Below are positions 1,992-9,268 of a stretch of 28,009 bases of DNA, in pieces (the stretch's first letter is position 1; each line of letters begins with the position of its first letter). Position numbers and translations under genes: made by a program. Source of the DNA: a virus. Location of the stretch: the IMG/VR virus record IMGVR_UViG_3300046472_000146, positions 1 through 28,009 of that record. The stretch is one strand, 5' to 3'. The notes below the pieces were generated by a model. It made no database searches and had not been told where the DNA came from. It was given only the letters and a program-made list of their open reading frames with translations.

Positions 1992-2900
1992 TTAGCCTGC
2001 CTTCTTTTGCTGCGATTGAGATTGACGAGTCCCGGCATCAATTCGCGGCATGACGAAAGGCAGATTGCGTTCAGTGTTTTTCAGGGAGAGCGAGACGCGA
2101 TGCTTTCGCCTGAAGGCATCGATTGCTTTGATGGCAAACTGATAAAGCAGGAGCCGGCCAGGTGAGCCGAGGAACATTTGCTTTTCTTTGACGATCAGCA
2201 CCTGGAAATTGCGCAAGTCTGTATTGAATGTCTCTGCAAGGGTTGTCTGTGCTGCACGCCGGATCTCAAGTCCTGGCTCTTTGCGATTCAGATGTGGTCC
2301 GAAGATACGCAGGAACTCGCTGTGTCCGTTGTAATAGGCGGCAACCGCCGCAGCCAAGACTGGAACCTGCATTTGCTTACCACAGGTCGCCAGAACGAAA
2401 TCGATACCTTCCTTGTAATACGAGTAATAATCGATAATCAGGTGATTCCGTTCTGCCTTTGACGTTTTCCGGCTCGGTTCAACTACCAGAAAGATCATTC
2501 GCGCCACTTCAAGCGCCTTTGGCGGCGCTTCGACTCGTTCGATCTGCTGAATATCTCTGACCGTTCGCGCCTCGCCTTGATCGGTGAAACTCCGCGATTT
2601 TGGATGTAGTCCGTAGACGATGCCGATCTCGCACGGTTCGCCCGCTTTAAGAATGGCCATCAAACGATTCTGGCCGTTGACCAGACTTCCATCGGTATCG
2701 AAACCAATGAAATCAGGCACGAGCGGAAACTGATTGTTTAGGATATTGCGCGCCATCGCGTTGATGCTGTGTGTCTTCTCTTTGCGATTACCCTCGTTGC
2801 AATAGCTGAGAATAAATTTCGCTTCTTTGGGTGAGACCTTCCGAACTTCAGCCTCAGGTTTCGGCCTTGCATAGCGTTGCTTGTAATCGGGTTCGGTCAT
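1992..2900 (-). CDS. ParB/Srx-fold phage protein
   Basis: The motif DGSLVNGQNRLMAILKAG (about residues 70-87) matches the ParB/sulfiredoxin-superfamily signature, in which a DG..R or GxxR loop binds nucleotide. The rest of the 302-residue protein is mixed helical with no HTH I can place with confidence. The open frame begins at 2933, but the ATG at 2900 has an excellent site (GAGGAGG, about 6 bases upstream) and overlaps the methyltransferase stop as ATGA, so 2900 is the start. Phage members of this group are often annotated as ParB-like nucleases. No ParA is present in the window, so plasmid-type partition by this protein alone is not supported. It sits between DNA modification and replication genes. 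Confidence 0.7.
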   Translation of the reverse strand: MTEPDYKQRYARPKPEAEVRKVSPKEAKFILSYCNEGNRKEKTHSINAMARNILNNQFPLVPDFIGFDTDGSLVNGQNRLMAILKAGEPCEIGIVYGLHPKSRSFTDQGEARTVRDIQQIERVEAPPKALEVARMIFLVVEPSRKTSKAERNHLIIDYYSYYKEGIDFVLATCGKQMQVPVLAAAVAAYYNGHSEFLRIFGPHLNRKEPGLEIRRAAQTTLAETFNTDLRNFQVLIVKEKQMFLGSPGRLLLYQFAIKAIDAFRRKHRVSLSLKNTERNLPFVMPRIDAGTRQSQSQQKKAG

Positions 2901-3910
2901 TGAGCCTCCTCGGTTGGTTTTATGTTGCCCCATACATACCAGTGAGGGCGTGATTTCCTGGCAAACAACTCAAGCCAGGGCGCAGGTGAGCAATCCTCAA
3001 TCAACTCATAGGCTTCGCCCGGCTTGGTACTGTGATCGCCGGGACGAGGAGCCATAAGCAAATTCGTGCGATTCTGTGTTTTCGTGGCAAGCGATCCTTT
3101 GACAGCAAAGATCATATGCTCGGTGGTTATCTGGAAATAGGCCCCCGCTTTGGGATCTGGCTTTGCCCACGTAATCAGAGTCAGATAGCGGAAGCCCCAT
3201 TTCTTGATAAGGTCCAGACCGGAGGGCAGGAATGGATTTGTTACCCAGAGATAGAGATGCGCATCCGGCATTGAGAACTTGTCGATCGGTATGGCTTCGA
3301 TTTCGCCAAGCGACATCTGAGCGTAAGCAGGCTTGATACCCACGCTTCGTTCCGAGTAACCAATATCGCGATAATCCCAGGGCGGGTCGATAACAATTGT
3401 CGGCACCGTCATGCCTTCAGGAAGTAAACCACCATGAAGTGTCGCCACGAGACGCCGATCATCAGCTTGCCGCTTCGCGCGTCCCTGTTCTCGGGCAACG
3501 CGCAATGCCAACGCCAGAGTCAATTCACGAACCTCATGGTTCCTTTCGTAGATATCAAGCCAGACTTGCCCCTTCAGCGTCGCCAGATCGATACATTTAT
3601 TGCCAGTGGTGTGCGGAATACCAATCTCTTGCCAAGTCGGAGAAACCTTCCCGTCCGGGGAAGGTTTGGACGGACGCCCATTCAAATGACGCCCACCTCC
3701 ACTGAGCATTCCTCCGACCTTATGCAGTGCGCAGAGGCGAAGCCAACCCGCCTTATTGAGGAGCTCAAGCGTGGCACCGGCCTTCCTCAATTGCTCCTGA
3801 ATGAATAGCGCTTTGTCGGCAATATTGAATGCCTCACTTGTAGTGCTGGCTTTCTCTAAAGCCTGGCGTGCTCGGTTGAGATGGGTGAGAGCTTCAGATT
3901 GATTCGTCAT
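2897..3910 (-). CDS. MT-A70 family adenine-N6 methyltransferase
   Basis: The C-terminal half is a clear MT-A70 domain. It has IVIDPPWDY with the catalytic DPPW at 175-178, LYLWVTNPFLPSGLDLIKKWGF (about 219-240), TEHMIFAVKG at 263-272, HSTKPGEAYELIE at 293-305, and ELFARKSRPHWYVWGN near the end. The N-terminal 165 residues are helical and basic and probably bind DNA or a partner. The family transfers methyl from AdoMet to adenine N6. The gene overlaps the HNH nuclease stop by 17 bases, so the two are co-expressed, and it is coupled to the ParB-like gene by ATGA. Protection of phage DNA from host restriction is the likely role. A paired modification/nuclease function with HNH is speculative. 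Confidence 0.88.
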   Translation of the reverse strand: MTNQSEALTHLNRARQALEKASTTSEAFNIADKALFIQEQLRKAGATLELLNKAGWLRLCALHKVGGMLSGGGRHLNGRPSKPSPDGKVSPTWQEIGIPHTTGNKCIDLATLKGQVWLDIYERNHEVRELTLALALRVAREQGRAKRQADDRRLVATLHGGLLPEGMTVPTIVIDPPWDYRDIGYSERSVGIKPAYAQMSLGEIEAIPIDKFSMPDAHLYLWVTNPFLPSGLDLIKKWGFRYLTLITWAKPDPKAGAYFQITTEHMIFAVKGSLATKTQNRTNLLMAPRPGDHSTKPGEAYELIEDCSPAPWLELFARKSRPHWYVWGNIKPTEEAQ

Positions 3911-5856: not shown

Positions 5857-6135
5857 TTATCGACGGCGTGCGCTGGCCAGCGTGGCCGGGGAGGCTGGCT
5901 GGACCAGTTCGCTCCCGTCCTCACTTCGAGAGTTCGCACGCCGCCGTGGGGGCACATCGCCCCTCCTTCTCATCTCACACCGCCCGCAGAACACGCCGAA
6001 GTACATCCCGTCATGCCAGACCTCGCGCACTTCGATCGTCATGCCGCTCACCCCGCATACCTCGCAGCGTCTTACGAGACTTTTCTGAGGTCGCTCTTCC
6101 GGCAGATCGGTTCGTGCTTCATCGTCTCGTGCCAT
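5857..6135 (-). CDS. Small CxxC zinc-binding protein (92 aa)
   Basis: Two cysteine pairs (CEVC at 24-27 and CGRC at 50-53) separated by a short beta-like segment suggest a zinc ribbon. The C-terminal 40 residues are arginine/proline/serine-rich and probably disordered. GGAGG lies 10 bases before the ATG at 6135, which supports this start although it overlaps the upstream HTH gene by 64 bases. An in-frame internal ATG would delete the first cysteine pair, so it is unlikely. Function unknown; small zinc-ribbon proteins in phage early operons often modulate host enzymes, but that is inference. Confidence 0.6.
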   Translation of the reverse strand: MARDDEARTDLPEERPQKSLVRRCEVCGVSGMTIEVREVWHDGMYFGVFCGRCEMRRRGDVPPRRRANSRSEDGSELVQPASPATLASARRR

Positions 6136-6275
6136 GCGTCAACGTCCTCCGGTAAGTAGTAGATTAGCCAGCCTGCGCGGTGATATTGAATCAGCCGATC
6201 GTGGCGCTGGCGCCGTACCGTGCGTTCGGATACGCCTACCTCCTTCGCAAATTCCTTTTCCGTCATCCTCGGCAT
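6072..6275 (-). CDS. Excisionase-like MerR-type HTH protein (67 aa)
   Basis: A winged-helix pattern of the excisionase/MerR type is visible: MTEKEFAKEVGVSERTVRRQ forms the helix-turn-helix, then GWLIYYLPEDVDAW resembles the wing and last helix of Xis-like proteins. It is the first gene of the leftward early operon and lies opposite the integrase, as excisionases and early regulators commonly do. The frame opens at 6284, but that ATG overlaps the predicted -10 box (6283-6288). The ATG at 6275 falls 7 bases after that box, so the mRNA is probably leaderless, and I use 6275. It may direct excision at attP, regulate the operon, or both. Confidence 0.7.
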   Translation of the reverse strand: MPRMTEKEFAKEVGVSERTVRRQRHDRLIQYHRAGWLIYYLPEDVDAWHETMKHEPICRKSDLRKVS

Positions 6276-6282
6276 ATGAGAC

Positions 6283-6312
6283 ATAATAAAGTTAACTTTA
6301 TGGATATGTCAA
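6283..6312 (-). promoter_or_regulatory. Leftward early promoter with operator in the spacer
   Basis: On the minus strand TTGACA (6312-6307) and TATTAT (6288-6283) are separated by 18 bases and match sigma-70 boxes well. A second TTGACA lies immediately upstream (6318-6313). The expected start of transcription falls at or within two bases of the HTH gene's ATG at 6275. The AGTTAAC palindrome fills the spacer, so a bound repressor would block polymerase. Confidence 0.7.
6286..6301. promoter_or_regulatory. Operator site 1: 16-bp perfect palindrome
   Basis: ATAAAGTTAACTTTAT is a perfect 16-bp dyad lying in the spacer of the leftward early promoter and touching its -10 box. It shares AGTTAAC with three further sites at 6320-6330, 6577-6587 and 6615-6625. 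The likely ligand is one of the two ribbon-helix-helix proteins encoded next to it, by inference from position. Confidence 0.65.
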
Positions 6313-6625: not shown

Positions 6626-6648
6626 TCTTGCGTTACCCTTGCCCCCTC

Positions 6649-6900
6649 ATGGCTAGACGCAAGAAGAAGGAGAACGACTTGCTCGAAACCGTAGGCATCA
6701 AACTCCCTCCCTCGGTGATTGCGGAACTGGATGCAATCGCGGACAACACGATCACTTCCAGGTCATGGGCTGGACGAAGACTGTTGCTGATCGGTCTGGA
6801 AATCTATCATCGCAATCGCTCACTGATCCTTGATAGTCAGACTTACAGCCCACCAATAAAGCCAGCCGAAGAGCCAGGCAAACGGAGGAAACCGGCTTGA
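6649..6900 (+). CDS. Ribbon-helix-helix regulator B (83 aa)
   Basis: After a basic N-terminus (MARRKKKENDLL) there is a CopG-like core: VGIKLPPSVIAELDAIADN, then SRSWAGRRLLLIGLEIYHRN. The C-terminal 25 residues are proline- and lysine-rich. The frame extends upstream to a TTG at 6607, but that part lies in the operator region and lacks family features, so the ATG at 6649 is used. No good ribosome site is visible. It lies 9 bases before the integrase and is probably co-transcribed with it, which suggests control of integration or of the divergent early operon. Confidence 0.7.
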   Translation: MARRKKKENDLLETVGIKLPPSVIAELDAIADNTITSRSWAGRRLLLIGLEIYHRNRSLILDSQTYSPPIKPAEEPGKRRKPA

Positions 6901-6909
6901 AGATCGGTC

Positions 6910-8055
6910 ATGCCGCGCAGTAGCATCAGCTCATCCTGCGTCTCCATCCATCCTCGCGGCTATATCTACGCCCGCGTGCTTTACTACGATTCCACCGGCA
7001 AGCGCTGTGAATATCGGGCACGTGCGTCGAGCAAAGGTGCCGCCAAAGATGCCATCCGCGACTTCGAAGCCAGGCTCAAAAGCTCCGGCATCGTTACCGT
7101 TGAGACACGCAAGCTGACCTTCGCCGATGTCGCCGCCGAATATGAGCGTGTTGAGCTGGTGCCGGTCGTCATCGTCGATGGTCACAAGGTATCCGGCAAA
7201 AAGCAGCTCGAGACGCCCAAGGGAATTCTGAAGCGCGTGCTCATCCCATATTTTGGCGACCGTCCAATCCAAGCGATAACCCGCCCTGACATCGAAGAGT
7301 TCCGCCGCGAGCGTTTCACCGTCCCAACCTGGCGCAAACAGCAACGCACCATCCGCACCGTCAATTACGAGCTCGCTGTGCTCAGGCAGGTATTCTATTT
7401 CGCGGCATCCAAGCGATGGCTTGACGGTTCACCACAGGAGATGTTCCGCAAGCTGATCTCGCCAGCCAATGAGACCAAGCGTGATCGGCTGCTAACGCCC
7501 GATGAACAGAAGCGGCTGATCCAGCACTGCGAGGGACCACGCATTCATCTCAGACCGCTCATCATCGCGGCATTGGATACCACACTACGCAAAGGCAACC
7601 TGCTGCGATTAACCTGGGCAGATGTCGATTTCAACGATCGGGTAATCCGCATTAAAAAGACATCGACCAAGACTGAGCAGGCGGTGACTATCGGACTCAC
7701 CAGGCGTCTCGAGGCTGAGCTGCACGAATTATGGCGCCTGTCGGACAAGCAGCCTGAGACGCGAGTCTTTGGAATCGACGGTGAATTCAAGCACGCCTTT
7801 GCCACGGCATGCCGCCTGGCTAAGATCGACGGGCTCAGATTTCACGATTTAAGGGCCGCAGCGAGTACAGGCATGGTAATGGCAGGCATCCCCGAAGAAA
7901 TTGTAAGGAAGGCGACCGGGCACGCACAGGCAGGCATCCTGCGCGATCACTACATTCGCGCCGACATCATCGCCGCACGTCATATAGCCGAGACGCTTGA
8001 CCGCATCCATGAGGCCGAGCGACTGACTACTGATCATAATGACCTCATCAACTGA
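6910..8055 (+). CDS. int: Phage tyrosine integrase
   Basis: The 381-residue protein has the usual three parts: an N-terminal arm-binding domain (about 12-60, GYIYARVLYYDSTGKR), a core-binding SAM-like helical domain (about 68-180), and a C-terminal catalytic domain. Catalytic residues can be placed as R227 (TTLRKGN), K250 (RIKKTST), H312 and R315 (FHDLR), H338 (TGHAQ) and the nucleophile Y348 (DHYIR). It would cut and rejoin attP with the host tRNA-Thr gene. The attP site and two pairs of putative arm sites lie directly downstream. It follows regulator B by 9 bases, so the two probably share an mRNA. Length and motifs are intact. Confidence 0.95.
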   Translation: MPRSSISSSCVSIHPRGYIYARVLYYDSTGKRCEYRARASSKGAAKDAIRDFEARLKSSGIVTVETRKLTFADVAAEYERVELVPVVIVDGHKVSGKKQLETPKGILKRVLIPYFGDRPIQAITRPDIEEFRRERFTVPTWRKQQRTIRTVNYELAVLRQVFYFAASKRWLDGSPQEMFRKLISPANETKRDRLLTPDEQKRLIQHCEGPRIHLRPLIIAALDTTLRKGNLLRLTWADVDFNDRVIRIKKTSTKTEQAVTIGLTRRLEAELHELWRLSDKQPETRVFGIDGEFKHAFATACRLAKIDGLRFHDLRAAASTGMVMAGIPEEIVRKATGHAQAGILRDHYIRADIIAARHIAETLDRIHEAERLTTDHNDLIN

Positions 8056-8058
8056 TTT

Positions 8059-8078
8059 TTATCCGCAGATTATCCGCA
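8059..8078 (+). repeat. Left pair of TTATCCGCA arm-type sites
   Basis: TTATCCGCA occurs at 8059-8067 and 8070-8078, 11 bp apart, about one helical turn, immediately after the integrase stop. The same 9-mer recurs as a pair on the other side of the attP core in the same orientation. Paired short direct repeats flanking attP are typical of arm sites bound by the integrase N-terminal domain. Confidence 0.75.
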
Positions 8079-8127
8079 ATCGCATGGCAAAAGCAGTCCA
8101 AATCTGGCCAAAGCTGACCTGCGGCAA

Positions 8128-8143
8128 TGTTCCACGTGGAACG
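8128..8143. promoter_or_regulatory. Near-perfect chromosomal-type parS site
   Basis: TGTTCCACGTGGAACG matches the bacterial parS consensus TGTTNCACGTGNAACA at every defined position except the last. It contains a perfect 14-bp palindrome. There is no U-tract after it, so it is not a terminator. It lies between the left arm sites and the attP core. Host ParB binding is the expected property, by established knowledge of the motif. The phage's own ParB-like protein at 1992-2900 could bind it too, but nothing shows this. Confidence 0.75.
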
Positions 8144-8204
8144 TAAGGTGTTTATTCAGGCCAGTTTAGGCCAATGCGGGACAAAGGTGACCGGATACGG
8201 CAGG

Positions 8205-8249
8205 TGATTCGTAATCAGTAGGTCAACAGTTCGAATCTGTTCACCGGCT
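8205..8249 (+). other. attP: attP: 3' half of a tRNA-Thr(CGT) gene
   Basis: The 45 bases reproduce a tRNA from the anticodon arm to the discriminator base. They contain loop TTCGTAA with anticodon CGT, stem TCAGT, a T-arm AACAG-TTCGAAT-CTGTT, and the acceptor strand CACCGGC. The 5' half (acceptor GCCGGTG and D-arm) is absent, and the 5' anticodon strand loses pairing upstream of 8205. It is therefore not a working tRNA but the segment that restores the host gene after integration. It lies 150 bases after the integrase. Confidence 0.88.
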
Positions 8250-8275
8250 TAGACTTACGGTTCTAATAATTGGTT

Positions 8276-8296
8276 TTATCCGCAATTTTATCCGCA
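8276..8296 (+). repeat. Right pair of TTATCCGCA arm-type sites
   Basis: TTATCCGCA recurs at 8276-8284 and 8288-8296, 12 bp apart, about 27 bases beyond the attP core and in the same orientation as the left pair. The last copy covers the stop codon of the leftward C5 methyltransferase gene. Confidence 0.75.
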
Positions 8297-9268
8297 AATT
8301 TTGATTTCTTGTGCGATGGCTGCGATGAAGACATAGGCAACCTGCGGGACGATGGCGTTCCCGAGCCCTCGCAGACGGTCCACTCTTTTGGGAATCCCTG
8401 AAGCCACTCTACCCACGTCGGGTTCAGTGAGCCAGATGCTTTCGAGGGGCTCACTGCCCTGCCAAGCAGTCCATTCACCGGGACGTTCAGCAGGTCGCCC
8501 GTGTCCTTGTGATCCCGTCCCGTTGGCGTCGGCCACATGCCCATTGTCTTGTAAACAGCCGTTGCCAGTCCGTCGCCGGCTTTCTTCGAAACGCCCTTGT
8601 AATTCCCATTGCCGTTGATCGTCGGCGTGGGCCAGTTCGCAACTGCCGTTTGCAGATTCAATCCGCCCTCCCGGCCCTGCGTACCCGCTCCCGTTGAGCA
8701 ATTGCTCGTCGGCGTGGGAAAGAATGCCCGATAGAATTCCGTGCGGTTCATCCCCGAAGACCTCTCGCCGCTGCAAGGTCTCGGAGTCGGTAAGGACAAT
8801 CCAGAGTCGGTCTCGTCTATGCAGCGCGCCAACGGCGGAAGCGGGAACGCAGTTCCACGAAGCATCAAACCCGAGCGCGGCCAGCTCACCGAGTATGCGT
8901 CCGAAGATTCGACCTCCATCCAGGGAAAGGATGCCTGGGACATTTTCCAGCAGCGCAAACCTGGGTCGTACCTCCCCAAGCAGTCGGGCAAGCTCGGGCC
9001 ATAGGAACCGCTCGTCGCTACTTCCACGCCGTTGCCCCGCACACGAGAAAGGCTGGCAAGGAAAGCCCGCTGTAACGAGATCAACGTCCTGAAACTGGTT
9101 GCCATCAATCGCTCGAACATCGCCGTAATTTACAACGCCTGGCCAGTGTAGATCCAGGATCTTCGAGCAGTAGGCGTCAGTCTCGGCGAATCCGATGGTT
9201 TCGAATCCCGCCCATCCAGCGGCAAGCGCAAATCCGCCAATGCCGCTGAACAGGTCCAGATGTCTCAT
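8288..9268 (-). CDS. DNA C5-cytosine methyltransferase
   Basis: All core motifs are present: motif I DLFSGIGG (5-12), motif IV GFPCQPFS with catalytic C71, motif VI ENV (108-110), motif VIII RRDRLWIV (151-158), and a C-terminal motif RLRGLGNAIVP (298-308). The variable region (about 165-290) is the target-recognition domain. It would methylate cytosine C5 within a DNA site I cannot predict. It is the last gene of a four-gene leftward group coupled by overlaps and starts with ATGA on the preceding gene. No restriction endonuclease is adjacent, so it is an orphan enzyme, probably for protection against host restriction. Confidence 0.95.
   Translation of the reverse strand: MRHLDLFSGIGGFALAAGWAGFETIGFAETDAYCSKILDLHWPGVVNYGDVRAIDGNQFQDVDLVTAGFPCQPFSCAGQRRGSSDERFLWPELARLLGEVRPRFALLENVPGILSLDGGRIFGRILGELAALGFDASWNCVPASAVGALHRRDRLWIVLTDSETLQRREVFGDEPHGILSGILSHADEQLLNGSGYAGPGGRIESANGSCELAHADDQRQWELQGRFEESRRRTGNGCLQDNGHVADANGTGSQGHGRPAERPGEWTAWQGSEPLESIWLTEPDVGRVASGIPKRVDRLRGLGNAIVPQVAYVFIAAIAQEIKICG

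Follow-up and report, generated by a model that had tools for sequence, protein, structure and literature searches.

Why should a sequence matching parS, the chromosomal site of the segregation protein ParB, be located within the attachment site of a temperate phage, and which protein would bind it there? ParB is known to act in the segregation of chromosomes and in the loading of SMC; its CTP-bound clamps are loaded at parS, from where they slide outwards. The question was raised by an IMG/VR virus record of 28,009 bases, analysed here as a whole and referred to as the window. An initial annotation had described a parS-consensus 16-mer with a perfect 14-bp palindrome at 8128-8143, and this match was verified. 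We propose, with a probability of roughly 0.6, that the palindrome is a phage-borne, chromosomal-type parS, serving as a loading site for host ParB within attP.

The palindrome and its surroundings

The features of the integrase region are as follows.

6072..6284, minus strand: small HTH_17 protein, excisionase-like (PF12728; phrog_66, excisionase and transcriptional regulator)
6637..6900, plus strand: ribbon-helix-helix (RHH, CopG-type) protein, directly upstream of int (PF01402 at the cut-off; phrog_4738)
6910..8055, plus strand: tyrosine integrase gene (int), 381 aa (PF00589, E=1.9e-21)
8059..8067, plus strand: left (P) arm-type integrase site TTATCCGCA, copy 1 (role assigned by position and repetition)
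8070..8078, plus strand: left (P) arm-type integrase site TTATCCGCA, copy 2 (repeat)
8129..8142, no strand assigned: parS-consensus site, perfect palindrome GTTCCACGTGGAAC, within the 16-mer TGTTCCACGTGGAACG at 8128-8143
8205..8248, plus strand: attP core, the 3' part of tRNA-Thr(CGT) from anticodon stem to acceptor stem
8276..8284, plus strand: right (P') arm-type integrase site TTATCCGCA, copy 1 (repeat)
8288..8296, plus strand: right (P') arm-type integrase site TTATCCGCA, copy 2 (repeat)

The layout of 8059-8296 reads as that of a classical attP, with a P arm, a core in the 3' end of a tRNA and a P' arm: the core corresponds to a tRNA 3' end and adjoins the integrase gene, and arm repeats are present on both sides, giving the order two arm sites, parS, tRNA core, two arm sites. 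The earlier placement of the palindrome between the integrase arm sites and the core was thus borne out by the location of the TTATCCGCA pairs and the tRNA-Thr core. The nonamer TTATCCGCA occurs four times in the whole 28-kb window, all within attP. The palindrome is separated by 73 bp from the end of the integrase gene upstream and by 62 bp from the tRNA-Thr(CGT) core, in which the crossover is probably located near the anticodon loop; no whole tRNA gene was found in the window. Here and below, the sequence itself served to assign arm sites, crossover points and most tRNA identities. Two DNA methyltransferases, C5 and MT-A70, are also encoded in the window, at 8263-9268 (minus strand) and 2897-3910 (minus strand), respectively, and the C5 gene borders the P' arm in the window phage only, being absent from this position in the related records L002 and L148.

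The palindrome agrees with 12 of the 12 fixed bases of the parS consensus GTTNCACGTGNAAC, and the 16-mer matches every fixed base except the last, the outermost base being G and not A. The consensus occurs once in the entire 28,009-base record, for which 28009/4^12 = 0.0017 chance matches per window are expected, a recalculation that agrees with the previous estimate of about 0.002 per 28 kb; in none of 100 shuffles did a tRNA T-loop follow parS at a distance of up to 92 bp. Chromosomal parS sites are located near oriC and usually clustered, whereas this site is phage-borne and present as a single copy in an attP; it was therefore filed as a phage-borne parS-type site and not as a chromosomal centromere.

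Conservation in relatives and recurrence in other attP types

The comparison with related phages proposed in the initial annotation was carried out, and the site was retained in both L002 and L148. These two records share the phage backbone of the window, the major capsid protein being 92% and 84% identical and the integrase 77% and 82% identical to those of the window, respectively, and TTATCCGCA repeats flank the core in both. The parS of L002, GTTCCACGTGGAAC, is identical to that of the window and at the same distance from the core, and that of L148 is GTTTCACGTGGAAC at an unchanged core distance. In the three-way alignment 13 of the 14 site positions are identical, and the sole change, C to T, hits the degenerate N at the fourth position of GTTNCACGTGNAAC; the three-way identity of the flanks is about 20% (9/45 from the P arm to the site and 12/52 from near the site to the core), with some bases just downstream of the palindrome also partly conserved. 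L002 has the same tRNA fragment as the window, whereas L148 has a tRNA-Thr with a different T-arm, indicating that its attB, and probably its host species, differ. Despite these differing tRNA-Thr sequences, the distance from the parS centre to the anticodon is 75 bp in L002 and 74 bp in L148. No parS is present in L150 and L314, whose integrases are distant relatives.

Among 78 integrase loci collected by protein similarity alone, GTTCCACGTGAAAC was found beside the 3' half of tRNA-Met in L172 and L179, of which the integrases are 65% identical to each other and about 30% identical to the window type. Near the ends of these 78 integrases, parS ranked first among 180 permuted palindromes, with two hits against a mean of 0.02, and since both hits are related they count as one independent event. 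A second scan, which looked for parS at 30-92 bp from a T-loop of a tRNA (on the anticodon side and for one T-loop form), gave at least five more cases among the matches listed, L324, L347, L366, L373 and L399, and two others, L026 and L029, were among the matches listed for the plain 14-mer; an integrase is located nearby in every one of these records. L026 shares its attP type with L373 (tRNA-Lys), and L324, L347, L399, L366 and L029 represent further types.

Judging from these comparisons, at least eight integrase lineages, the window type included, share the attP-parS arrangement. In the seven further attP types parS occupies the same nested position with different tRNA targets, and the integrases of different types are 21-33% identical. 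The targets as identified by eye are Thr, Met, Lys, Cys, Pro, a second Thr, a class-II tRNA and a Leu-type end, and the tRNA matches in the further records are partial tRNAs, as in attP or on the phage side of a junction. In nearly all of them the parS-core unit is flanked at either end by an arm-like repeat, the weakest cases being L373 and L179. Exactly one GTTNCACGTGNAAC is present in each attP-parS record, and across relatives parS varies only at the two N positions (4 and 11). The distance from the parS centre to the anticodon is constant within a type (75/74 bp as above, 27/27 bp in L172/L179 and 36/36 bp in L026/L373), and the parS-core spacing varies between types from 20 to 75 bp, which makes a fixed ParB-Int contact unlikely. 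Members within one attP type are related and hence not independent. The attP-parS phages found are all metagenomic contigs, and no close isolate relatives of the L373, L347 and L399 integrases were found. The attP of L366 (4400-4930) carries paired arm-like sites, CTTCCGCA, resembling the TTATCCGCA pairs of the window; its target is the class-II tRNA, and its int lies across the core from the parS side, unlike in the window.

The association with integrase-linked tRNA fragments was evaluated against viral loci. The motif GTTCGA located 30-92 bp 3' of parS was an integrase-linked tRNA fragment in 5 of 120 cases among the matches listed, against 1 of 913 cases in unselected viral loci (Fisher p=1e-4, odds ratio 40), and the same class was found in 0 of 684 cases elsewhere in the parS loci. 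T-arms in general near parS showed no significant enrichment (8/120 among the matches listed versus 27/683, p=0.14), because tRNA genes are common in phages; the enrichment near parS is confined to integrase-linked T-arms.

In the viral collection as a whole, GTTCCACGTGGAAC gave more than 120 matches, and when that collection was scanned in full, CTTGCACGTGCAAG, a control palindrome matched in composition and centre, was found 81 times. Part of the GTTCCACGTGGAAC matches carry T and A as flanks (60 of 121 cases among the matches listed); the use of this flank enrichment as a 16-mer signal was rejected, since it is partly hairpin-derived, and the control palindrome extends less. As judged by the sequence match, parS-type sites are common in phages, mostly in records without integrase or ParB, so that phage parS is not restricted to attP, and the attP arrangement is a distinct subset of these sites. 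Phages of the phi29 group of Bacillus carry ATGTTCCACGTGAAACAT in the connector gene (phi29 gene 10, EU771092 10444-10461), and 16- to 18-mers of parS are also present in Listeria, Gordonia, Microbacterium, Lactobacillus and Pseudomonas phages and in Microviridae; in Pseudomonas phages of the phiPsa374 group the 18-mer lies within the direct terminal repeat, about 370-440 bp from the genome end. L354 has three parS in a cluster-like array within 350 bp (11952, 11976 and 12298), and in L380 (3881), L009 (10691) and L424 (224) parS adjoins apparently complete or near-complete tRNA genes; no integrase was detected in these four records. The 19-mer of the window, GTTCCACGTGGAACGTAAG, was found in an intergenic region of L147 (1112-1130, minus strand), where no integrase was found; L147 was rejected as a relative, being an unrelated phage in which the shared 19-mer is probably due to chance.

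The ligand and competing explanations

A search for the ParB_N domain gave no match in the window and none in 10 of the 11 attP-parS records, the single match being in the record of L324; an element-borne ParB, the mark of phage ParABS systems, was thus not found for the window phage by this search. A 313-aa protein of the window (1992-2933, minus strand; phrog_5931, unknown function) contains a ParB/Srx-like DGSLVNGQNRL motif, but was rejected as the binder: no structural match was found for it, its single-sequence model (pLDDT 36) was too poor for structure search, and no relatives of this protein, nor of the C5 methylase, were detectable in L002 and L148, which retain the site. Since the site is of the chromosomal type and no parS-binding ParB of the phage was detectable, host ParB would be the natural ligand, and also the most economical one, because the site shares its fixed bases with the chromosomal parS, which is widely conserved. 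It is quite probable that ParB is the ligand of the attP palindrome. This reading assumes a ParB-bearing host. Synergistaceae were rejected as the host, since their tRNA-Thr, the sole match to a 25-mer of the tRNA in a collection of genome contigs, has a different anticodon stem; in 188 Synergistota genomes chromosomal parS was found near TCGAAC, with no integrase in the fetched loci.

Host ParB might be recruited by parS solely to position or segregate the unintegrated circular (or trapped) genome, with the attP location resulting from the travel of int-attP cassettes as a module. That parS lies far from integrases in many phages, and as 18-mers in gene 10 of phi29-like phages, is in keeping with such use, and so is the case of SGI1, an integrative element of which the own parS copies hijack the IncC plasmid ParABS for SGI1 stability (PMC10954446). 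Like SGI1, which has no ParAB of its own, the window phage is an integrating element that carries parS, putatively for a resident system, and in which no ParB_N was found; SGI1, in contrast, uses a plasmid ParB and another parS, located within DR1/DR2 repeats, whereas the window phage has the host-chromosome consensus inside attP. A segregation site could sit anywhere, and yet in eight unrelated integrase types the sole parS nests between arm and core, with a spacing to the crossover that is constant within groups. Segregation use alone leaves this nesting unexplained, and we consider it doubtful as the whole explanation.

The palindrome could instead be bound by a phage protein, such as an excisionase, an RHH protein or the integrase, its likeness to parS being coincidental. 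The RHH protein (6637..6900) is the candidate for such a DNA-binder, an HTH_17 gene is also near int, and a few bases downstream of the palindrome share in the conservation. Moreover, in lambda attP the host cofactors IHF and Fis act between arm and core, where Xis sites are also located, a position to which that of the palindrome corresponds; the layout of arm, accessory site, core and arm with a tyrosine integrase is common to both, with the difference that the accessory site of the window matches parS. Against this explanation, the same 12 fixed bases are present in integrase systems that are unrelated and differ in their accessory genes and arm repeats, and parS came first among the permuted palindromes. 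It is unlikely that phage-specific proteins share one specificity across eight integrase types, and this explanation is judged quite improbable.

A reader scanning many motifs will find some by luck, but a chance origin, or descent from oriC DNA of the host, is very improbable given the expectation of 0.0017 per window, the maintenance of the site in two relatives with diverged flanks, and a recurrence near attP exceeding the controls; the arm sites flanking parS on both sides mark the region as phage DNA and not as an oriC relic. An RNA hairpin (terminator or retroregulator) behind int is hardly credible, for although a 5-7 bp stem with an ACGT loop is possible in the window and L002, and certain copies in phages form long inverted repeats or follow terminators, no terminator-like site was found, the fold energies were not better than those of shuffles (z -1.35, -0.25 and -0.05), the L148 form does not fold likewise, and in L366 int sits on the opposite side of the core.

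A possible role of host ParB at the insertion site

The nested position of a single parS suggests that phages may recruit the host segregation protein ParB at their insertion site, and the chances that its role lies in recombination or lysogeny control, rather than in pure segregation, appear about even. The functions suggested in the initial annotation were stable maintenance of the circular form, the placing of integration, and compaction or silencing of the region, each of which may apply. After entry and circularisation of the phage genome, host ParB-CTP clamps would load at the single parS and slide across the adjacent arm sites, the core and the end of int, and the attP complex would thus be tethered to the host partition machinery while integrating. 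After integration, parS would stay with the P-arm half-site, which in the window type lies next to int at a distance of about 75 bp, and ParB on the integrated P arm could hinder arm occupancy and disfavour excision, or dampen int. More broadly, and only as a tentative and somewhat unlikely generalization, host ParB may act as a general host cofactor in the site-specific recombination of phages, much as IHF or Fis do: many unrelated temperate phages of ParB-bearing hosts would have independently built parS between the P arm and the core, and ParB-CTP loading would control integration, excision or int expression, coupling lysogeny to chromosome segregation. We know of no host ParB acting as a cofactor of phage integration.

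Phage phi29, a further precedent for use in segregation, is virulent, has neither integrase nor attP, and reportedly depends on Spo0J for spore entrapment. Both phi29 and the window phage have chromosomal-type parS, phi29 being without ParB and the window phage without a detectable one, and host ParB is used by phi29 and putatively by the window phage; the phi29 sites are in coding sequence, whereas the window site is in attP. Repression of promoters adjoining parS in a ParB-dependent manner was described in Pseudomonas aeruginosa (PMC5521831; review PMC7022226). Extrachromosomal mycobacteriophages encode ParABS, with ParA/ParB and a direct-repeat parS, and one of these, RedRock, is without integrase (PMC7157519); a parS in a temperate phage is common to these and the window phage, but the latter is without ParB_N and has an integrase and a palindromic parS.

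The exploitation of a resident ParABS by mobile elements is thus already known, and what appears to be new is parS in attP across unrelated integrases. A literature search that covered few subscription journals and no bioRxiv preprints gave no description of a parS of the chromosomal type within the attP of a phage. The statement of the initial annotation that host ParB binding to a phage attP would be unusual calls for a qualification: parS-type sites proved to be widespread in phages, and the attP-parS arrangement itself recurs in no fewer than eight integrase lineages.

If the proposed function of the palindrome as a host ParB loading site is true, attP-parS is predicted to be present in phages of ParB-bearing hosts and absent where hosts are without ParABS, such as E. 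coli. ParB would gain a role in phage integration or lysogen stability, lysogeny would be linked to the partition machinery, and the arrangement would explain how some prophages could shape chromosome folding.
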